From positions 186,001-250,000 of the forward strand of contig NZ_LT635455.1 in NCBI RefSeq assembly GCF_900119915.1: a stretch of 64,000 nt of DNA, written 5' to 3'. This DNA is from Olsenella timonensis. Its GTDB lineage: Bacteria > Actinomycetota > Coriobacteriia > Coriobacteriales > Atopobiaceae. A model generated the notes under the pieces. The model ran no database searches, was not told the DNA's origin, and saw only the letters and a program-made list of their open reading frames with translations. Shown here in pieces: positions 7,228-16,071 of this stretch; position 1 is the first letter of the stretch; every line of letters begins with the position of its first letter. Position numbers and translations under genes: made by a program.

Positions 7228-7293
7228 AGGTGACCGGAGTGTCACGTGACGGGCGACGGGCCCCTCGGTAGGATGGCGGCGGGAGGTGGTCCG

Positions 7294-8016
7294 ATGGGCG
7301 GGACGGTCCTTGTCGTCGAAGACGACGCCGACATCGTGGAGCTGCTCGAGCTCTATCTCACGGGCGGGGGCTATGACGTGATCTCGGCGAAAGACGGCGT
7401 CGAGGCGCTCGAGCTGCTGCGCGAGCGCACCGCCGACGTGGCGCTCGTCGACATCATGATGCCCCGGATGAACGGATACGACTTCATCAGGGAGCTGCGC
7501 CGGACGAGCTCGATGCCCGTGCTCGTCGTCTCGGCGCGTACGCAGACGGCCGACAAGATCGTGGGGCTCGATGCCGGGGCGGACGCCTTCATCGCCAAGC
7601 CGTTCGACCCGCTCGAGGTCGCCGCCCACATTCGCGCCGTGCTCCGCCGCGCCGGGGCGACCGACCCCGCGCCGGTCGTGCCGCCGGCCGCGACCGGCGA
7701 CTCCGTCATCGTCGTGGGCGCGCTCGCCTTTGACACCGAGCGCCTCGTCCTCACCAGGTCCGGCGAGCCCGTGCCGCTGACGGCGGCCGAGCTCAAGATC
7801 ATGGCGGCGTTCATGTCGTCCCCGGGGAGGGTGTTCTCCAAGGAGCAGCTCTACGCATGCGTGAGCGGCGACCCGGTCGCGCTCGGGGGGAGCGGGGTGG
7901 CGAGCAGCGTGATGATGCACGTCTCCAACATCCGGGCCAAGCTCGAGGACGACCCGCTGAGCCCGCGCTTCATCAAGACCGTCCGCGGCCTGGGATACGC
8001 CCTTGACGGCTCGTGA
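7294..8016 (+). CDS. OmpR/PhoB-family response regulator
   Basis: A 240-residue regulator. The receiver domain (1-120) has acidic Glu9-Asp10-Asp11, phospho-acceptor Asp53 (VDIMMP) and Lys102 (FIAKPFDP). A 25-residue linker rich in Pro/Ala leads to the OmpR winged helix, with LTAAELKIMAAFMSSPG and RFIKTVRGLGYAL. Start at ATG 7294, seven bases after GGGAGG. It overlaps the kinase gene by 14 bases, so the pair is co-translated. Direct repeats before the next operon may be its targets. Confidence 0.92.
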   Translation: MGGTVLVVEDDADIVELLELYLTGGGYDVISAKDGVEALELLRERTADVALVDIMMPRMNGYDFIRELRRTSSMPVLVVSARTQTADKIVGLDAGADAFIAKPFDPLEVAAHIRAVLRRAGATDPAPVVPPAATGDSVIVVGALAFDTERLVLTRSGEPVPLTAAELKIMAAFMSSPGRVFSKEQLYACVSGDPVALGGSGVASSVMMHVSNIRAKLEDDPLSPRFIKTVRGLGYALDGS

Positions 8017-9643
8017 CGGGGCCGGGGGGCGTCGCCGATCGTCGGGGGGCGCCCTGCGCGGGCTGTTCGGCAGCCTCGCCGTGCGCTGCCTCGCGGTCCT
8101 CGCCGCCTATGCGCTCGCGCTCGTGGGCGTGCTCATGGGGGCGGGAGCGCTCTCGGAGGCCGTGTTCGAGGGGGCCTTCCCGTCGATGGAGACGGTGCTC
8201 GAGCGCCAGGGCGACCTCTCACGCGACCGCTTCGGGGCCCTGACGGGGGGCGACCTCTCCAACTGCCTCGTCGTGGTCTTCGACTCGGACGGTCGCCGCC
8301 TGTACGCCTCGAGCCGGGAGGCTGCCGAGAAGATCCGCGCCTCCGACCTCGACGTCATCGGGGACGCGAGCGACGGCCTCTTCTACGAGGTCTTTGAGGA
8401 GCCCGCGGGTGACGGCGTGCGTCACCGCGTCATGCTCTGCGGCTACGACGCCGAGGACGACTCCAAGGTCGTGAGCTCGTGGTGCGTGCTCGACGAGAGC
8501 CTCAAGGTGGTCGAGGGGCCGCTGTTCTCGGGGCGCGGCTCGCTCACCCCGCGCGAGTTCGGCCTCATCAAGGGCGTCTATGACGGGCGCATGAGCATTT
8601 CCCGCCTGGACTACGAGAACGACGGCGGCGACCCGCGCACCCTCGTGCTCGCCGCCCCGATCGTGAGCGATGCCGGCTACGCTCGGGTGGCGGACGTCGC
8701 AAGCCGCCTGTGGATGCTCGCGGTCCCCCTGGTGCTGCTCCTGACCGCGGCCGCCGCGCTCGCCCTCGGCCGCCTCGTCCGACGCTCCGCGCGCCCGCTC
8801 GACCGCGCGATCGCCGCCTGCCGCGACGCGGACGCGAGGGGAGGCGCCGAGCCGGTCGAGAGCTCGCGGGCCGCCGGCGTGCCGGCCGAGCTCGCCGTCG
8901 TCTACGACAACTTCCTCGACCTGATGAGCCGGCTGCGCGCGGTGCGCGACGACCAGCGGCGCATGGTCGCGAGCGTCTCGCATGACCTCAAGACCCCGCT
9001 GACCGTGATCCGCGGCTACGCGCAGGCGCTCTGCGAGGGCCTCGTCCCGCCGGATCGCGTCGACGCCTACCACCGGGTCATCCACGAGCGCGCGCTCGCG
9101 GCCGCCGACCTGCTCGAGGAGTTCTCCGCATACGCTCGGATGGAGCACCCGGAGCACTCGCTCGAGCTCGTGCGGGCCGACGTGCGCGACCTGGTGGCGG
9201 CATCCGTCGACGAGGCGCGCCCCCTTGCCGAGCAGCGGGGCTGCCCGCTCGAGACGAGCGTCGGCACAAGGGGGCTCCCGGCCCTCGTCGACGAGGCCCT
9301 CCTCAGGCGCCTGCTGCTCAACCTCGTGGGAAATGCCGTCGAGCACAACCCCTCCGGCACGCGCGTGCGCGTGAGCTGCACCGCCGAGGGCGGCCGCGTG
9401 CGCGTGGTGGTCGCCGACTCCGGCGTCGGCATCCCTCCCGACCTGGCGCCCCACGTCTTTGAGCCCTTCGTCACTGAGAACACCGCGCGCTCGACGGACG
9501 GCGGCACGGGGCTCGGCCTCACCATAGCCCGGCGCGCAGCCGAGCTCATGGGCGGCTCCGTCGGCCTCTCCACGACCCCGGAGGCCCCCTGGGTGACGGA
9601 GTTCGTGGTCGACCTGCCCCTCGACGCCGAGGGAGAGGGGTAG
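8003..9643 (+). CDS. Sensor histidine kinase
   Basis: A 546-residue membrane kinase, apparently starting at TTG 8003 inside the regulator gene. Membrane spans lie at about 27-50 and 233-255, enclosing a sensory domain of about 180 residues with several Cys. A HAMP-like linker is followed by the dimerisation domain with phospho-acceptor His327 (SVSHDLKTPLTVIRGYAQAL), then the ATPase domain with N box NLVGNAVEHN, DSGVGI and GGTGLGL. The extracytoplasmic domain matches nothing I know. Position before a surface-modification operon suggests sensing of envelope stress. Confidence 0.9.
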   Translation: MTARDGAGGRRRSSGGALRGLFGSLAVRCLAVLAAYALALVGVLMGAGALSEAVFEGAFPSMETVLERQGDLSRDRFGALTGGDLSNCLVVVFDSDGRRLYASSREAAEKIRASDLDVIGDASDGLFYEVFEEPAGDGVRHRVMLCGYDAEDDSKVVSSWCVLDESLKVVEGPLFSGRGSLTPREFGLIKGVYDGRMSISRLDYENDGGDPRTLVLAAPIVSDAGYARVADVASRLWMLAVPLVLLLTAAAALALGRLVRRSARPLDRAIAACRDADARGGAEPVESSRAAGVPAELAVVYDNFLDLMSRLRAVRDDQRRMVASVSHDLKTPLTVIRGYAQALCEGLVPPDRVDAYHRVIHERALAAADLLEEFSAYARMEHPEHSLELVRADVRDLVAASVDEARPLAEQRGCPLETSVGTRGLPALVDEALLRRLLLNLVGNAVEHNPSGTRVRVSCTAEGGRVRVVVADSGVGIPPDLAPHVFEPFVTENTARSTDGGTGLGLTIARRAAELMGGSVGLSTTPEAPWVTEFVVDLPLDAEGEG

Positions 9644-9654
9644 CCTCAAGGAAT

Positions 9655-9702
9655 CCTTAGGAACTCAGGGAACCTTTAGCCCCTCCTCAGGTCTCCCTTA
9701 GG
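9655..9702 (+). promoter_or_regulatory. Repeated CCTTAGG-like boxes before the Dlt-like operon
   Basis: In the 105-base gap between the kinase stop and the ligase start, boxes CCTTAGG (9655), CTCAGG (9664), CCTTTAG (9673), CCTCAGG (9685) and CCTTAGG (9696) follow one another at 8-12 base steps. Such head-to-tail repeats are the usual target form of OmpR/PhoB-family regulators. Binding by the adjacent regulator is inferred from position. Confidence 0.55.
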
Positions 9703-9748: not shown

Positions 9749-11362
9749 ATGGCCGAGACCGTTCTGAGGCTCGTGGGCGACGCGTCGCCCGCAGGGTCGC
9801 CGCGGCGGGCGACCTACGCCCGCACCGCGCTCGCGTTCCTCGAGCGCGGCGCGCTCGACCATCCCGCGCGCGTCGCGGTGACGGACGAGGGCGGGTCGTA
9901 CGGGTATGGGTGGCTCTTCGAGCGGAGTCGCCGGATCGCGAGCGGGCTTCTCGCCCGCGGCGTCGGCGGGCGTCCGACAATCGTGTGCATGGAGAAGGGC
10001 GCCGAGGCCCTCGCCGCCTTCTTCGGCGTGCTCATGGCCGGGGGGTTCTACGTGCCCGTCGACCCGGGCGCCCCGGCGGGCAGGGCCGCGCGCTGCGAGG
10101 CGCGCCTCGGGCGTCCCGTCGTGCTGTCGGACGCGCGGGGCATCGGCTCAGCCCGCGGCCTCTTCCCCGACGCCCCGGTCCTCTCGACCAGCGAGCTGGG
10201 AAGGTCGGTCGTCGCGGAGGGGGAGCTCGCGCTCATCGCCCGTCGAATCGCCCCGTCCGACGTCGCCTACGTGCTCTTCACGTCGGGGTCCACGGGCGAG
10301 CCCAAGGGCGTCGCCGTGAGCCACGCCGCCATTCTCGAGTTTGTCGCGACGTTTGTGGAGACCTTCGGCATACGTCCCGACGACGTGCTCGGGAGCCAGG
10401 CGCCGCTCGACTTTGACGTCTCGGTCAAGGACGTCTACGGCGCGCTCGCCGCGGGCGCCACCGTGGCGCTGCTGCCGCGCAGGCTCTTCTCGGCCCCCGC
10501 GAGGCTCGTGGAGGCGCTCGAGGAGCGACGGGTCACGGTGCTCGTGTGGGCCGTGGCGGCGCTCTGCCTGGTGAGCGGCCTGCGGGCGCTCGAGGGCGCA
10601 CGGCTCGACCGCGTCCGACTGGTGCTGTTCAGCGGGGAGGTCATGCCGGCAGGGCATCTGCGGCGCTGGATGGAGCGGCTCCCCCGGGCGACGTTCGCGA
10701 ATCTCTACGGGCCCACGGAGGTCACCTGCAACTGCCTCTACCACGTGGTGGAGCGCGACCGCGCGTACGAGGAGGGCCTGCCGCTCGGCGAGCCGCTCCC
10801 GGGGAGGCGCGTGCTGCTCCTCGACGGGGAGACGCCCGTGACGGAGGAGGGCTCCGTCGGGGAGATCTGCGTGGGGGGATCGGCCCTGGCCCGCGGGTAC
10901 TACGCCGACCCCGATCGCACGGCTCGCTCGTTCGTCCAGAACCCGCTCTCGGGGGCGCTCCCCGAGACGCTGTACCGCACCGGCGACCTCGCGCGGATCG
11001 GGGCGGGCGGCGAGCTCTACTTCTGCGGGCGCGTGGACAACCAGGTCAAGCTCCAGGGCCATCGCGTCGAGCTGGAGGAGGTCGACGCCGCCCTCGAGGC
11101 CCAGCCGGGCGTCGAGCGCTGCCGCTGCGCGTACGACGCGCCCCGTCGCCGCGTCTGCGCCTTCTACGAGGGGGACGCCGCCCCGGGGGAGCTCAGGCTC
11201 GCCGCGGCGCGCCTCGTCCCGGGCCCCGCGGTGCCCGCCGTCATCGAGCGGGTAGACGCGATGCCGCTCACGCGAAACGGGAAGGTGGACCGGTCCGCCC
11301 TGCTCGAGGCTCACCTCGGGCGCGCTCGCCGCGGACGTGCCGGGGGGAGGCGGACATGCTGA
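9749..11362 (+). CDS. DltA-like amino acid adenylating ligase
   Basis: A 537-residue AMP-forming ligase that activates an amino acid and should load it on the carrier protein two genes on. Motifs: YVLFTSGSTGEPKGVAVSH (A3), LDFDVSVKD with the amino-group-binding Asp, NLYGPTE (A5), LYRTGDLA (A7), GRVDNQVKLQGHRVE (A8) and Lys512 in TRNGKVDR (A10). DltA proteins carry a Cys in FCGEV that helps select D-alanine; here the same place reads LFSGEV (Ser295), so the substrate may differ from D-Ala. Start follows GGAGGAGAC. First gene of a five-gene operon; overlaps the next start by 7 bases. Confidence 0.85.
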   Translation: MAETVLRLVGDASPAGSPRRATYARTALAFLERGALDHPARVAVTDEGGSYGYGWLFERSRRIASGLLARGVGGRPTIVCMEKGAEALAAFFGVLMAGGFYVPVDPGAPAGRAARCEARLGRPVVLSDARGIGSARGLFPDAPVLSTSELGRSVVAEGELALIARRIAPSDVAYVLFTSGSTGEPKGVAVSHAAILEFVATFVETFGIRPDDVLGSQAPLDFDVSVKDVYGALAAGATVALLPRRLFSAPARLVEALEERRVTVLVWAVAALCLVSGLRALEGARLDRVRLVLFSGEVMPAGHLRRWMERLPRATFANLYGPTEVTCNCLYHVVERDRAYEEGLPLGEPLPGRRVLLLDGETPVTEEGSVGEICVGGSALARGYYADPDRTARSFVQNPLSGALPETLYRTGDLARIGAGGELYFCGRVDNQVKLQGHRVELEEVDAALEAQPGVERCRCAYDAPRRRVCAFYEGDAAPGELRLAAARLVPGPAVPAVIERVDAMPLTRNGKVDRSALLEAHLGRARRGRAGGRRTC

Positions 11363-12555
11363 GCGACGACGAGCTCCTTCGCCTGGCGGACGACCATGGC
11401 ACGCCCCTCTATGCGTTCGACACGCGCGACCTCGCCCCCCGCGTGGCCCGTCTGCGCGCCGCGCTGCCGCGCGACGTCGCGCTCTGCTACGCCGTGAAGG
11501 CGAATGCCTTCGTGCTCCCGGCGCTCGAGCCCCTGGTCGAGCGCCTCGAGGTCTGCTCCCCCGGGGAGCTCCGCATCTGCCGCGCCCTCGGCGTTCCTGG
11601 CGAGAAGGTCGTCCTCTCGGGGGTCAACAAGGACGAGCCGACGGTCGACGACGCGGTCGGGGCCGCCGGGGTGCCGTCGGTCGTCACGGTGGAGTCGGCC
11701 TCTCAGCTCGCGCTCGTGCGGCGCGTCGCTCGCGCCCGCGGCCTGCGCGTGCCCGTGCTGCTGCGGCTGTCGAGCGGCAACCAGTTCGGCCTCGACCGGG
11801 CCGACCTCGAGCGCGCCGCCCGCGAGGCGACGGGCGACCCCTTCCTCGAGCTCAGGGGCGTCCAGTTCTTCTCGGGGACCCAGAAGGGCTCGGTCAGGCG
11901 GATCCGCCGCGAGGTGGCGCGCCTCGGCGAGCTCGCATGCGAGCTCCGTGACGGGTGCGGCCTGGAGACGGCGGAGGTGGAGTACGGCCCCGGGCTGCCC
12001 GTCGCGTACTTCGAGGGGGACGAGACGGACGAGGGGGCGCTGCTCGAGGGGCTCGCCGAGGCGATCGACGACCTGCCCCGCACCGCCCGCGTGACCCTTG
12101 AGCTCGGGCGAAGCCTCGTCGCGGCCTGCGGGACCTACCTCACGCGCGTGGTGGACGCCAAGGAGGTCGCCGGCCAGCGCTACGCCATCGTGGACGGCGG
12201 GGTGCACCAGCTCGTGTACTACGGGCAGTCCATGGCCATGCGCCGTCCGCCCGTTCGGCTGCTGGGAGGTCGGTCGGGGGCGAGCGGCGCGGGCGAGGCC
12301 CCCTGGAACGTGTGCGGCTCGCTCTGCACGGCGAACGACATCCTGGCCAAGCAGCTGCCGCTCGCGGGCCTTGCGGAGGGCTCGCTGCTCGCCTTCTCCC
12401 GCTCCGGCGCCTACTGCGCGGCCGAGGGGATGGCGCTCTTCCTGAGTCGCGACCTTCCGCGCGTGGTGCTCGTGGGCGCGGACGGCGCCCCCGAGCTCGC
12501 TCGCGAGGGCGTGCGAACCGACCGGTTCAACGCCCCGTCCGTCAGCGCGCGCTGA
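11356..12555 (+). CDS. Fold-type III PLP decarboxylase (LysA/BtrK-like) in Dlt-like operon
   Basis: A 399-residue enzyme of the alanine racemase N-domain/DAP decarboxylase fold. Lys48 in CYAVKANAF binds PLP; SGNQFGLD, GVQFFSGTQKGS, LELGRSLVAACGTYL and Cys324 in CGSLCTANDIL follow in family order, and GAYCAAEGMALF ends the barrel domain. The GxxFFSGTQ and ELGR variants resemble enzymes acting on carrier-protein-bound amino acids (BtrK of butirosin synthesis, exosortase-A-associated decarboxylases) more than free-substrate LysA. Start ATG 11356 overlaps the ligase gene. It lies between ligase and carrier, which supports a tethered substrate. Not a normal dlt component. Confidence 0.78.
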   Translation: MLSDDELLRLADDHGTPLYAFDTRDLAPRVARLRAALPRDVALCYAVKANAFVLPALEPLVERLEVCSPGELRICRALGVPGEKVVLSGVNKDEPTVDDAVGAAGVPSVVTVESASQLALVRRVARARGLRVPVLLRLSSGNQFGLDRADLERAAREATGDPFLELRGVQFFSGTQKGSVRRIRREVARLGELACELRDGCGLETAEVEYGPGLPVAYFEGDETDEGALLEGLAEAIDDLPRTARVTLELGRSLVAACGTYLTRVVDAKEVAGQRYAIVDGGVHQLVYYGQSMAMRRPPVRLLGGRSGASGAGEAPWNVCGSLCTANDILAKQLPLAGLAEGSLLAFSRSGAYCAAEGMALFLSRDLPRVVLVGADGAPELAREGVRTDRFNAPSVSAR

Positions 12556-12616
12556 GGAGGACTCGCGCGCCCCGAAACGATGTCCCCGGGCCGAGCCCGG
12601 GGGGAAGGGAGTACCC

Positions 12617-12850
12617 ATGGACACGATTCTTGACATTCTTGACGAGCTCAAGCCGGGCGTCGACTGGCGCGGGCGCAACGACCTCGTGGACAGTCGCGAG
12701 CTCGACTCGCTGACCATCATCTCGCTCGTCGCAGAGCTCGAGGATGCCTTCGACGTCGTCGTGCCCGCCGTGGAGATCGTGCCCGAGAGCTTCAACTCGC
12801 TCGACGGCATCTGGTCGCTCGTGTGCCGCCTGCGCGAGCAGGACCTCTAG
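12617..12850 (+). CDS. Acyl/aminoacyl carrier protein (DltC-like)
   Basis: A 77-residue acidic four-helix carrier protein. The phosphopantetheine site is Ser31 in ELDSLTIISLVAELEDAF. Length equals DltC and small ACPs. Start at ATG 12617 with GGGGGAAGGGAG upstream. It sits 61 bases after the PLP enzyme and 3 bases before the MBOAT gene, so it should carry the activated amino acid from the ligase to the membrane acyltransferase. Confidence 0.88.
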   Translation: MDTILDILDELKPGVDWRGRNDLVDSRELDSLTIISLVAELEDAFDVVVPAVEIVPESFNSLDGIWSLVCRLREQDL

Positions 12851-12853
12851 CCC

Positions 12854-14440
12854 ATGGACCTGGACATGAGCTCGTACTTCTCGGCGGCGTTCCTGCTCGC
12901 CCTTCTTCCCGCGACGGTCGTCTGCTACCAGGTCGTGCCGCGCCGGGCGCGCTGGGCGGTGCTCCTGGCGGCGAGCTATGCCTTCTTCTGGGCGCTGAGC
13001 GGTCCGCTCCTCGCCTTTGCGGTCGGCTCGACGGTCACGGTCTGGGGGACGGGGCTCGCGCTCGGCGCCCTGGCGGAGCGACGTGCGGCCGACCTCGCGC
13101 GGCCGGGGGTCGACCGGCGGCGCGCGCGGCGCGCCTGGGGGCGTCGGATGCGCCTCGTGCTCGCGGCGGGCGTGGCGGTCAACCTCGGCATCCTCGGCGT
13201 CCTCAAGTACGCGGGCTTCGTCTGCGGACTTCTGTCGCCGCTGGGGCGCGCGTCTGCCCCCGCCCTCTCGGTCGGTCTGCCGATCGGGATCTCGTTCTAC
13301 ACGCTTCAGGCGGTGTCCTATCTGGTGGACGTCTACCGCGGAAGCGTCCGAGCCGATCGCAACCTGGCGCGCCTCGCCCTCTACCTCGTGTTCTTTCCCC
13401 AGATCATGGAGGGCCCCATCTGTCGCTACGACCAGACGGCACCGGCCCTCTGGGCCGGGGCGCCCGTCACGGCGGAGGGCCTCTTCTCGGGAGGCGTGCG
13501 GGTGCTCTGGGGGTTGGCCAAGCGCATGGTGGTGGCCAATCGCCTCAACCTGTTCGTCCGCACGGTCTTCGACGACCCCGGCTCCTATGACGGGGGCATG
13601 GTCGCGCTCGCGGCGGCCCTCTATACCCTGCAACTCTACTGCGACTTCTCGGGGACGATGGACGTCGCGTGCGGGATGGGGCGCGTCTTTGGGGTGAGCC
13701 TGCCCGAGAACTTCCGTCAGCCGTTCTTCTCGCGCACCGCCTCCGAGTTCTGGCAGCGCTGGCACGTCACGCTGGGCGCCTGGTTCAGGGACTACGTGTT
13801 CTACCCCGTCTCGCTGAGCGCCCCTGTCAAGCGGCTCACCTCGTGCGCGCGAAGGGCGCTCGGCAACCGCGTGGGGCCGGCGGCGGCGAGCGGCGCGGCG
13901 CTGCTGTGCGTGTGGCTGGCGAACGGCCTGTGGCACGGCGCCGGGACGCAGTACCTGCTCTTTGGCCTGTACTACTTCGTCCTCATCTGGGCCGGGGGCC
14001 TTCTGGCCCCCGCCTCGGAGGCCGTCTGCGAGCGGCTGGGCGTCGCTCGCGACGGCGCCCTCTGGCGCTCGTTCCAGCATGCGAGGACGCTGCTGGCGGT
14101 GATTGCCGGCGAGCTGCTGTTCCGCTCGTCGGGCGCCCTCGAGGGCCTGCGGCTGCTCCGGCGCGCCACCCTCGGCTTCAGGGCGGAGTCGCTCGTGGAC
14201 GGGACCGCCCTCACGGCGGGGATGGACGCGGCCGACTTTGCCGTGGTCGCCGCGTTCGTGGTCGCGCTGCTCGTCGTGGGGGCGCTGAGGGAGCGCGGGG
14301 TGCGCCCGGTCGAGGCCGTCTGGCGTCGCGGGGCGGTGCCGCGCTGGGCGGCGTGCTGCGCGCTGCTCGTGCTCACGGTGGTCTTTGGGGCCTACGGAGC
14401 GGGGTACGTCCCCGTGGACCCCATGTATGCGTCGTTCTAG
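12854..14440 (+). CDS. MBOAT membrane acyltransferase (DltB/AlgI-like)
   Basis: A 528-residue polytopic protein with about 11-12 membrane spans. MBOAT signatures: GISFYTLQAVSYLVDVYRG, FPQIMEGPICRY, QLYCDFSGTMDVACG, FRQPFFSRTASEFWQRWHVTL and catalytic His361 in LANGLWHGAGTQY. It is longer than DltB (about 400) and closer in size to AlgI/PatA-type enzymes. It should pass the acyl group from the carrier protein across the membrane to a surface polymer. It starts three bases after the carrier gene; a second ATG (12866) is possible. Confidence 0.88.
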   Translation: MDLDMSSYFSAAFLLALLPATVVCYQVVPRRARWAVLLAASYAFFWALSGPLLAFAVGSTVTVWGTGLALGALAERRAADLARPGVDRRRARRAWGRRMRLVLAAGVAVNLGILGVLKYAGFVCGLLSPLGRASAPALSVGLPIGISFYTLQAVSYLVDVYRGSVRADRNLARLALYLVFFPQIMEGPICRYDQTAPALWAGAPVTAEGLFSGGVRVLWGLAKRMVVANRLNLFVRTVFDDPGSYDGGMVALAAALYTLQLYCDFSGTMDVACGMGRVFGVSLPENFRQPFFSRTASEFWQRWHVTLGAWFRDYVFYPVSLSAPVKRLTSCARRALGNRVGPAAASGAALLCVWLANGLWHGAGTQYLLFGLYYFVLIWAGGLLAPASEAVCERLGVARDGALWRSFQHARTLLAVIAGELLFRSSGALEGLRLLRRATLGFRAESLVDGTALTAGMDAADFAVVAAFVVALLVVGALRERGVRPVEAVWRRGAVPRWAACCALLVLTVVFGAYGAGYVPVDPMYASF

Positions 14441-14473
14441 GGCCGCCGGGGCGGTCCCGTCGATTGGGGTCTC

Positions 14474-15433
14474 ATGATGAAGCGCATCACGCACGTACTG
14501 GCCGGGCTGCTCAAGGTGGCCCTGTCCGCGGTCGCGACCGTCGCGGTCTTCCTCGCCATCTCGCATGTGCTCGCGCCCAAGAACAACCAGGAGGCGTTCG
14601 GGCAGCACGACGAGCGCGCCCACGGGGTGGCCGGCGAGCCCGCGGGCAGCATAGACGTGCTCTTCCTGGGCGACTCAGAGATCTACACCTCCGTGTCGCC
14701 GCTGCAGCTCTGGGACGAGCGGGGCGTCACGTCGTACGTGCTGGGCACGGCCGCCCAGAAGCTCCCCTACACGCGGTCCCTTCTCGCCGGCGCCCTCGAG
14801 GGGCAGGACCCGCGGGTGGTGGTGCTCGAGACCAACTGCCTCTTCCGCCCCTTCACGACGGGGGAGGCGCTTCTGCGCGCCGGTAGCGACGCGCTGCCCG
14901 CGATCGAGTACCACGACCGCTGGAAGAGCCTGACCGTCCAGGACCTCGTCGCCCCCGTGCGCGCCACGTGGACCGACGAGGAGAAGGGATTCGCACCCGG
15001 GAGGGGGACGCGAGCGGCTGACGCCTCCGGGCACATGGCGCCGAGCGACAAGGTCGCGGCGCTGCCTCGCCTCAACCGCCTCTACCTCGAGGAGATCAAG
15101 CGGATGTGCGACCGCGAGGGCGCGCGCCTGGTGCTCCTGAGCACGCCGAGCACCAGGAACTGGAGCACGGCGCGACACAACGGGGTGGAGCGGGTCGCCC
15201 GGGAGCTGGGCCTGGACTACGTCGACCTCAACGTGGGCGACGACCTCGTGGAGATCGACTGGGCGACCGACAGCTACGACGCCGGCGACCACCTCAACGT
15301 CTCCGGCGCGCGCAAGGTCACCACCGCCGTGGGCTCGCTGCTCGCCGGACGCTACGACGCGCCCGACCATCGCGGCGACGACGCCTACGACGCATGGGCG
15401 GAGGCGAGCGCCCGCTCTCGGGGGAGACGGTGA
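14474..15433 (+). CDS. Membrane-anchored SGNH-like protein of Dlt-like operon
   Basis: A 319-residue protein with one N-terminal membrane segment (about 8-32) and an outward domain of SGNH-hydrolase type. Block I is FLGDSEIYTSVSP with Ser68; the C-terminal DAGDHLN supplies the Asp/His (His273). Proteins of this form (AlgJ/AlgX, DltD) finish transfer of the acyl group to the acceptor polymer or edit it. It is the last gene of the operon, 33 bases after the MBOAT gene. Confidence 0.82.
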   Translation: MMKRITHVLAGLLKVALSAVATVAVFLAISHVLAPKNNQEAFGQHDERAHGVAGEPAGSIDVLFLGDSEIYTSVSPLQLWDERGVTSYVLGTAAQKLPYTRSLLAGALEGQDPRVVVLETNCLFRPFTTGEALLRAGSDALPAIEYHDRWKSLTVQDLVAPVRATWTDEEKGFAPGRGTRAADASGHMAPSDKVAALPRLNRLYLEEIKRMCDREGARLVLLSTPSTRNWSTARHNGVERVARELGLDYVDLNVGDDLVEIDWATDSYDAGDHLNVSGARKVTTAVGSLLAGRYDAPDHRGDDAYDAWAEASARSRGRR

Positions 15434-15460: not shown

Positions 15461-15799
15461 CTATGCCAGTCGCTTGCCGCTCTCCCAGGCCTGGCCGACC
15501 TTCTCGCCCATGGCGTAGTAGCCGCTCTGGAACTGGTCGAAGGCAAAGGCGTTCAGCCTGGCGGGGTCGACCCTGCCGCTCTCGTCGAGCACGGCGTCGT
15601 CGGCCAGCACGTTCTCGATGCGGCCGAGCACGCGCAGGCCGTAGGGCTGGTCCTGCATCTCGACCACGCTGCACTCGAGCGTGATCGGGTACTCCTGCAC
15701 CACCGGGGCGTCCACGCGCTCGCTCCTCACGGCGGTCATGCCGGTGCGCTCGAACTTGTCGGCCACCTTGTTGCCGCTCGCGATGCCGAAGTAGTCGCG
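15461..15799 (-). pseudogene. Flavin reductase-like gene lacking its N-terminal part
   Basis: The frame gives RDYFGIASGNKVADKFERTG, then PITLECSVVEMQ and FDQFQSGYYAMGEKVGQAWESGKRLA, the last two thirds of an FMN-binding split-barrel flavin reductase (about 160-190 residues when whole). The first 50 or so residues are missing; upstream of 15799 the sequence abruptly becomes an alcohol dehydrogenase gene on the opposite strand. A short product from ATG 15766 is possible but would lack part of the flavin site. Confidence 0.72.
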
Positions 15800-15801
15800 G
15801 C

Positions 15802-16071
15802 GAGCTCTTCTGGGCGAGCGCCATGGCCGAGAACGGCATCCTCAAGATCGGCAAGGCCACGGCCTTCCAGGCGCACATGATCGAGCACCAGCTCGGCGCC
15901 TACACCGACTGCAACCACGGCTTCGGCCTGGCCGTCATCCACCCCACGATGTACCGGCACATGATGGGCGGCGCGCCCGAGAAGTTCGCGCGCTTCGCGA
16001 CCGAGGTCTGGGGCGTCGAGGCCGAGGGCAAGACCATGGACGAGCTCGCCGCGGCCGGCGCCCGCCGAGTG
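15802..16071 (+). pseudogene. Internal fragment of iron-containing alcohol dehydrogenase
   Basis: ELFWASAMAENGILKIGKAT, IEHQLGAYTDCNHGFGLAVI and FARFATEVWGVEAEGKTMDEL match the middle of YqhD/butanol-dehydrogenase-like enzymes (about 385 residues), including the metal-ligand histidines of IEHQ and CNHG. Both ends are gone: the N-terminal NAD(P)-binding half stops at 15802 where a truncated flavin reductase begins on the other strand, and the C terminus stops at about 16071 just before trmL. Confidence 0.75.

Follow-up and report, generated by a model that had tools for sequence, protein, structure and literature searches.

A Dlt-like operon with an embedded, putatively carrier-linked decarboxylase in Olsenella timonensis

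Results and Discussion

A five-gene operon with a proposed role in surface acylation

Five genes on the plus strand of an Olsenella timonensis genome (9749–15433 of the window) form an operon that resembles the Dlt surface D-alanylation system and carries, in addition, a pyridoxal phosphate (PLP) enzyme of the decarboxylase type between the ligase and carrier genes. The window is the whole 64,000-nucleotide stretch analysed, positions 186001–250000 of a single 2,176,737-base contig (NZ_LT635455.1). We propose, with a probability of roughly 0.64, that the operon encodes a Dlt-like, carrier-based surface acylation system in which the added group is not D-alanine but a decarboxylated amino acid, in all likelihood beta-alanine. 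The gene set, its conservation, the enzyme classes, the tree position and the conserved residues were computed; from these we infer the substrate, the product, the polymer, the regulation and the physiological role.

In the proposed route, the substrate would be an acidic amino acid, aspartate being the most likely, which the ligase would adenylate at the side-chain carboxyl and load on Ser31 of the carrier, with Asp223 of the ligase pocket holding the amino group and Lys227 holding the free alpha-carboxylate. The PLP enzyme would then strip the alpha-carboxyl on the carrier to give a beta-alanyl thioester (gamma-aminobutyryl if glutamate is loaded). The MBOAT acyltransferase would carry the acyl group through the membrane to its own C-terminal Tyr525, from which the SGNH protein would take it on Ser68 and esterify an extracellular polymer. 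The outcome would be a free amine, that is, an added positive charge, controlled by the adjacent two-component system.

A first-pass annotation of this DNA had described the order ligase, LysA/BtrK-fold enzyme, carrier, MBOAT and SGNH protein with overlaps or short gaps, and the open reading frames, family models and an SGNH-fold model agree with it. The ligase and PLP genes overlap by 7 nt, and gaps of 61, 3 and 33 nt separate the PLP gene from the carrier gene, the carrier from the MBOAT gene, and the MBOAT from the SGNH gene, respectively. Curated family models agree for four of the five proteins, the SGNH protein being the exception.

Conservation of the gene order

Using the PLP protein as query, we found matches at E 1e-20 or better in 88 of 297 genomes of the window's order. 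An orthologue above 100 bits was present in 55 of the 297 (best scores 174.8–859.5). The remaining 33 genomes scored 72.8–89.9 bits and were LysA-like, except for one contig-end fragment (G224, 45% identity) that was left out of the 55. Leaving aside the window's own genome, 54 neighbourhoods remained; 40 of them were fetched and their genes assigned by homology. The five-gene order (type I) was present in 25 of these, two of them with a split ligase frame; one locus was rearranged (L052) and one was cut by a contig end (L071).

The other 13 neighbourhoods displayed a second layout (type II) around ligase, PLP enzyme and carrier, with the ligase seen in 12 and an upstream MBOAT in 10 of the 13. 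An SGNH-like gene lay between MBOAT and ligase in all six loci inspected and in L128. Across the type II loci (L058–L070, L128), the SGNH-like gene mostly had GSS or GTS instead of GDS, and the MBOAT and SGNH-like genes came first where they were seen. Three type II loci (L065, L066, L068) had a second MBOAT 3' of the carrier.

A scan of species genomes returned at least 595 stretches, 569 of them confirmed, and the best 80 were examined. The five genes occurred in order in 75 of these 80, one locus was of type II and four ended at a contig end. Most of the 80 belonged to Coriobacteriia or Clostridia; others came from Erysipelotrichia, and one from Streptococcus suis (SSHP-D). The closest named records among the scan matches listed were Thermophilibacter, Atopobium, Olsenella and other Atopobiaceae. 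Some genomes are common to the order-level set and the 80-locus scan. In evenly drawn samples, the PLP gene scored above 440 bits in 9 of 291 genomes from the class that includes Catenibacillus and was present in 1 of 147 streptococci. Six more Clostridia genomes gave PLP matches of 209–227 bits, and the four inspected had no MBOAT or SGNH match nearby; two of these (L192, L193) look like biosynthetic clusters. The distribution of the PLP set is patchy but broad, and the five-gene order is conserved beyond chance and confirmed as real, in other Coriobacteriia, as the first-pass annotation had proposed to search, and well beyond them.

The PLP enzyme groups with carrier-linked decarboxylases

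The PLP enzyme (P0003, 399 aa; 11356–12555, plus strand), annotated here as a putative decarboxylase of the carrier-linked type, contains PF02784 and PF00278 and carries Lys48, Cys324-Thr325-x-x-Asp328 (the CTAND box) and Tyr353. Its best NCBIfam models were TIGR03099, the exosortase-A decarboxylase (187 bits, cut-off 478.45), and the LysA model TIGR01048 (162.3 bits, cut-off 297.9). BtrK (2j66, 89.7 bits) was among its best solved relatives; the PDB title of 7ru7 reads L-glutamyl-[BtrI] decarboxylase.

In a tree of 58 rows, all 14 LysA rows separated from the PLP enzyme family at 100/99, so that the enzyme does not group with LysA when placed beside LysA, BtrK and the exosortase enzymes, a comparison already suggested for this gene. 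Type I enzymes formed one group (100/99), type II enzymes another (99/96), and the two were joined at 100/100. Their nearest outgroup was a VinO-like pair of two Streptomyces genes (95/95), one of which adjoins a methylaspartate mutase gene and a ligase matching 3wvn at 627.9 bits. The VinO-like label of this locus (L161) derives from that gene context and ligase match, 3wvn being VinN according to the accessible part of PMC11253843. Branches were long for L001, L157, L158, L165, L167 and L184, and the join of the exosortase and Paracoccus enzymes may be false. The active-site box points in the same direction as the tree: ten LysA rows showed CExxD, and rows of the window family shared C-T/S-xxD with BtrK and with the exosortase and VinO-like enzymes.

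The window genome contains one other gene of the same fold, which is LysA-like, sits on a long branch and scores 263.9 bits with TIGR01048, more than the operon gene and, like it, below the cut-off. The operon gene is thus not the genome's sole lysA-like gene. A moonlighting LysA was rejected on this separate gene, the tree position and the active-site box, and membership in the exosortase-A family was rejected on the TIGR03099 score, the family member from S. meliloti reaching 579.6 bits. Eleven plasmid-borne loci were inspected among the 60 plasmid matches listed. Two were annotated lysA; of the other nine, seven had an AMP-ligase and/or carrier gene adjoining the PLP gene, and a Rhizobium and a Vibrio locus had neither beside it.

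Judged by its sequence, the PLP enzyme is not LysA and groups with carrier-linked decarboxylases, and it very probably decarboxylates a carrier-bound substrate. We also considered D-alanine, or another plain amino acid, as the attached unit, with the PLP enzyme supplying it as a racemase. The overall Dlt-like set would suit such a role, and the enzyme passes PF01168, the alanine-racemase N domain (38.5 bits, cut-off 24.1). PF02784 nevertheless outscores PF01168, the enzyme has both the Cys324 box and PF00278, the C-terminal sheet domain of decarboxylases, the ligase stands apart from DltA (see below), and a classical DltA also exists in S. suis SSHP-D, which together make this explanation very unlikely.

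The ligase and proposed side-chain loading

The ligase (P0002, 537 aa; 9749–11362, plus strand) is a standalone amino-acid adenylation enzyme by TIGR01733 (343.5 bits, cut-off 317.4), and its AlphaFold model (predicted local distance difference test score, pLDDT, 91.9) has the adenylation fold. A PLP decarboxylase requires a free alpha-amino and a free alpha-carboxyl group. Because alpha-decarboxylation on the carrier needs a free alpha-carboxylate, an acidic amino acid would have to be loaded through its side-chain carboxyl. The earlier proposal of on-carrier decarboxylation of an activated amino acid gains support from the grouping with carrier-linked enzymes and needs one change, activation at the side chain, since an alpha-carboxyl that forms the thioester could not be removed.

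A motif alignment placed ligase residues Asp223, Val224, Lys227, Ser295 and Asn328 at adenylation-domain (A-domain) positions 235, 236, 239, 301 and 331, respectively, and position 278 was Ala or Ser. Lys227 was found in every ligase frame covering the region (38 of 39 in the order-level set, 79 of 82 in the scan set, the exceptions being fragments). As controls we used 19 DltA loci picked by TIGR01734 score, 18 from the order and one from S. suis; no PLP match occurred in the surrounding stretches examined. Position 239 in these controls was Tyr, Phe, Met or Thr, and basic in none of the 19. The Ser295 in LFSGEV had been read correctly in the first-pass annotation, and its contrast to a DltA Cys is real without being clean, since Cys occupied position 301 in 15 of the 19 controls and Val, Ser, Ala or Asp the others. 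At the level of sequence, Lys227 separates the window ligase from DltA better than Ser295/Cys does.

The ligase scored 235.6 bits with the DltA model TIGR01734 (cut-off 559.85). This cut-off is strict for coriobacterial DltA, with 2 of the 297 genomes over it and 81 at E 1e-100 or better, and because most coriobacterial DltA proteins also miss it, the ligase tree outweighs the score. In this quick tree of 84 rows with support from the Shimodaira–Hasegawa-like approximate likelihood ratio test (SH-aLRT), the 19 DltA rows separated from the window-type ligases at 100. The ligases of the PLP sets (20 rows) and those of the racemase clade described below (25 rows) each formed one group, also at 100.

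Precedents for side-chain loading come from antibiotic pathways. In the part of PMC11284099 available, 3-methylaspartate is loaded on VinL by VinN and decarboxylated in this loaded state by VinO, and Asp is the amino acid recognised by FlvN. Val236 and Ser301 of the window ligase (A-domain numbering) resemble the features of beta-amino-acid A domains, for which the accessible text of PMC11253843 gives VinN F231/S299 and TycA A236V. In aminoadipate-type domains, the side-chain carboxyl must be activated, as the excerpt of PMC7147772 states. VinN-like and exosortase-type ligases had, in our alignment, a shorter loop with Arg.

Sister sets without the PLP enzyme

A control brought up a related set in Anaerocolumna (L196, 3412–8690) with the order racemase, ligase, carrier, MBOAT and SGNH protein and no PLP enzyme. 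Using its ligase as query, 50 of 291 genomes matched at E 1e-90, 27 of them at 570 bits or more. Leaving out three partial matches, 24 of these 27 and the Anaerocolumna set made up a sister clade of 25, in which 23 ligases had Lys at position 239 and the other two had Arg. A gene resembling that of the Anaerocolumna racemase lay directly 5' of the ligase in 15 of the 25 (Anaerocolumna included) and one gene further in two. The Anaerocolumna racemase, the one scanned with family models, scored 105.7 bits with PF01177, 179 with TIGR00035 (cut-off 93.1) and 155 with the cysteate racemase model (cut-off 190), and at most 40 bits with the glutamate and aspartate/glutamate racemase equivalogs. From these sequences, the substrate read by the basic residue at 239 is probably acidic when activated, and a PLP-less sister clade with Lys/Arg239 and an aspartate-type racemase points to aspartate and hence to beta-alanine.

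Two alternatives can be weighed on this evidence. The same logic could operate with glutamate loaded through its gamma-carboxyl to yield gamma-aminobutyryl, as in the BtrJ/BtrI/BtrK route. BtrK is among the best solved relatives of the PLP enzyme, as said, and Lys227 would suit either acid; the small-pocket residues V224, A/S278 and S295 and the VinO-like nearest neighbour fit Asp better, and the single racemase scanned from the sister clade matches the aspartate-type model far better than the glutamate racemase models. We consider glutamate rather unlikely. It is less probable still that the PLP enzyme decarboxylates free aspartate and that the ligase activates the resulting beta-alanine directly. 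Many free-substrate decarboxylases belong to the same fold family, but the tree position among carrier-linked enzymes and the VinO precedent speak against such a pathway; the invariant pocket Lys would also have no partner on beta-alanine, and the sister clade retains Lys/Arg in the absence of a PLP enzyme.

Most of the sister loci (L196, L246–L266 and L283–L285) repeat the gene order of the Anaerocolumna set. They have an upstream membrane-anchored protein; the two examples scanned contained Ig-like and transglutaminase-like domains. In five other Dlt-like sets (L267, L269, L270, L273, L278), a GNAT acetyltransferase gene occupies the slot of the PLP enzyme between ligase and carrier. Four further loci (L275, L276, L277, L279) contain Dlt-like sets in which two ligases stand in tandem and the MBOAT is DltB-like and short, at about 380 aa.

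Carrier, MBOAT and SGNH protein

The carrier (P0004, 77 aa; 12617–12850, plus strand; PF00550, 21.9 bits, cut-off 20.8) has its phosphopantetheine Ser31 in the motif LDSL, and this Ser was conserved in 119 of 119 aligned carriers. The protein scored 26.4 bits with the DltC model (cut-off 68).

The MBOAT acyltransferase (P0005, 528 aa; 12854–14440, plus strand; PF03062) carries His361 and a C-terminal hexapeptide PMYASF with Tyr525, a putative acyl shuttle. Both residues were present in each of 111 aligned MBOATs, and the last hexapeptide position was Phe in 108 and Tyr in 3. The 111 MBOATs were counted without de-duplication, and the counts of 111 and 119 leave out the partial MBOATs L060 and L069 and, in the second set, MBOATs below 600 bits or 480 aa and carriers below 80 bits or 60 aa. 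According to the accessible portion of PMC12148441, bacterial MBOATs hand their acyl group over to the Tyr of a C-terminal FXYXXF hexapeptide, which belongs to DltX in the Dlt system and to the MBOAT in other systems.

No separate DltX is encoded in the operon, the gaps being too small for one. Among the 19 DltA control loci, 18 had DltB-like proteins of 384–414 aa that lacked the C-terminal shuttle motif, and separate DltX-like open reading frames were found at seven. The window MBOAT scored 137.7 bits with the DltB model (cut-off 375). As judged from these motifs, the putative shuttle Tyr sits on the MBOAT itself, and the set joins a carrier donor with a fused shuttle. Membership in classical Dlt was rejected: the DltA, DltB and DltC models were not passed, the ligase tree is apart and DltX is missing.

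The last protein (P0006, 319 aa; 14474–15433, plus strand) is a putative surface acyltransferase with an N-terminal helix, and no Pfam or NCBIfam family matched it above cut-off. Its AlphaFold model (mean pLDDT 96.6) has the SGNH fold, and Ser68, Asp269 and His273 were invariant in 51 rows. The model matched the GDSL protein 4rsh (Z 14.3) and PatB 7tjb (Z 13.0) by VIA, and DltD 6o93 at E 1e-4 (rank 30) by Foldseek; DltD was not among the best 50 VIA matches listed, which has no bearing on kinship. At L209 (3728), a second MBOAT of 508 aa ending in FIYFQF stands beside one classical dlt set.

Regulation, acceptor and genome context

Upstream of the operon and on the same strand lie genes for an OmpR/PhoB-type response regulator (7246–8016; PF00072 and PF00486), the probable regulator of the operon, and its partner sensor histidine kinase (8003–9643; PF00512 and PF02518). 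Of 105 type I loci, 45 had both genes in this upstream, same-strand arrangement and four more had one of them; the pair occurred at none of the 13 type II loci. The 105 loci were counted without de-duplication, and some are cut by contig ends. The 105-base gap 5' of the ligase contains repeats in 11-base steps, inspected by eye, that form a candidate regulator site (9655–9701, plus strand) with CYTTAG at 9655, 9674 and 9696 and CCTCAG between the last two. A similar spacing was visible by eye in six near relatives, most weakly in L078. On the 3' side, 15461–16060 holds short, broken-looking frames, which we take to be a flavin-reductase-like piece on the minus strand and the end of an iron alcohol dehydrogenase-like gene on the plus strand.

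The 30 largest clusters of neighbouring genes comprised mainly the two-component system genes, an ABC exporter-like cluster (by eye, 16 loci) and scattered genes, and the acceptor polymer could not be read from this context; many printed representatives were spurious long frames of GC-rich DNA. These data also bear on the idea that the product of ligase, PLP enzyme and carrier is not an ester on a surface polymer but a lipid headgroup or a small molecule. Related ligase-decarboxylase-carrier sets do serve macrolactams and exosortase-linked loci; no biosynthetic cluster was prominent among the 30 clusters, with the same reservation on their representatives, and an MBOAT and SGNH protein with acyl-shuttle residues accompany the triad in 75 of the 80 scan loci. 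We regard this idea as highly improbable.

For the proposed surface acylation, we infer a surface polymer as the acceptor and an amine as the product. In the window genome we found a single MBOAT and no match to PF04464, the CDP-glycerol transferase family; no DltA reached E 1e-100, the operon ligase being the best TIGR01734 match. The only sulfatase-family (PF00884) gene found (G000:C1:1318907-1319842, L195), a 727-aa frame with several hydrophobic spans, could by its sequence be a lipoteichoic acid synthase. Because of this single MBOAT, the single sulfatase-family candidate and the lack of DltA and PF04464 matches, lipoteichoic acid is at most a fair guess for the acceptor.

Of the 297 genomes of the order, 55 carry the PLP orthologue, 81 have DltA (E 1e-100 or better) and 11 have both (Fisher p 0.24), which gives no hint that either takes the other's place. 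Classical dlt and the PLP set can coexist in one cell, since in S. suis SSHP-D (L147, L215) the classical DltA/dlt genes lie about 25 kb from the PLP set in the same genome.

Relation to known systems and points against the proposal

Like Dlt (DltA, DltB, DltC, DltD, DltX), the window set has a ligase, a carrier, an MBOAT and an SGNH protein, and an amine-bearing amino acid ester is expected on a surface polymer. It differs in the extra PLP decarboxylase, the Lys at 239 and the shuttle Tyr fused to a 528-aa MBOAT. The VinN-VinL-VinO/FlvN systems of beta-amino acid macrolactams share side-chain loading on a standalone carrier and a related PLP decarboxylase, as far as the available part of PMC11284099 describes them; they feed a polyketide synthase instead of an MBOAT-SGNH pair and use a shortened ligase loop with Lys/Arg instead of the Lys239 of the window ligase. 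BtrK and the exosortase-A decarboxylase (TIGR03099) are likewise carrier-side PLP decarboxylases with a CTxxD box but have other partners. PatA-PatB and other MBOAT-SGNH acyl-Tyr shuttles share the MBOAT His, the C-terminal Tyr hexapeptide and the SGNH partner; in the window set, the expected acyl donor is a carrier protein, not acetyl-CoA, and the first motif residue is mostly Pro. No description of the ligase-PLP-carrier-MBOAT-SGNH set was found in the literature searched, which excluded preprints and most subscription papers. New here are the proposed side-chain loading with Lys227, the PLP-less racemase sister clade, the putative MBOAT-borne shuttle Tyr and the upstream two-component system.

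Several observations weigh against the proposed route. The ligase does not use the VinN solution, as its loop EVTCNC is longer than the shortened beta13-beta14 loop (K330/R331) of VinN-like enzymes, and the side-chain mode is for this reason deduced from one Lys and the clade context. Arg239 reads the alpha-carboxylate in aminoadipate-type A domains, a role unconfirmed in the literature searched on side-chain A-domain codes, which held no statement on residue 239. The Lys is not exclusive to operons with a decarboxylase or racemase, given that four of the five GNAT-type ligases have Lys239 (the fifth has Gln), and in 8 of the 25 sister loci no racemase was found near the ligase. The PLP enzyme passes the racemase domain model noted above, albeit through a shared fold, and a siderophore-locus enzyme on a long branch with no carrier gene nearby (L165) also falls on the carrier-linked side of the tree. 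The strict FXYXXF motif is missed at the first hexapeptide position, which is Pro in 102, Phe in 8 and Leu in 1 of the 111 MBOATs. Finally, the two regulators were not found together in the examined stretch of 60 of the 105 type I loci.

Implications

D-alanylation sets surface charge, cationic peptide resistance and host recognition in Gram-positive bacteria. If the proposed acylation is correct, a second widespread chemistry would do this job, the surfaces of many gut commensals would be misread by gene searches for dlt alone, and a beta-amino acid ester would await discovery on their polymers. The operon would also join two fields, carrier-bound decarboxylation from antibiotic pathways and envelope acylation. 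More tentatively, at slightly less than even odds, Dlt could be one branch of a larger carrier-MBOAT-SGNH surface aminoacylation family in gut Bacillota and Coriobacteriia, in which the tailoring enzyme encoded next to the ligase would differ from branch to branch: a PLP decarboxylase for beta-alanine, an aspartate-type racemase for D-aspartate, or a GNAT acetyltransferase for an N-acylated unit. Such systems would let cells give their surface polymers positive, negative or neutral marks.

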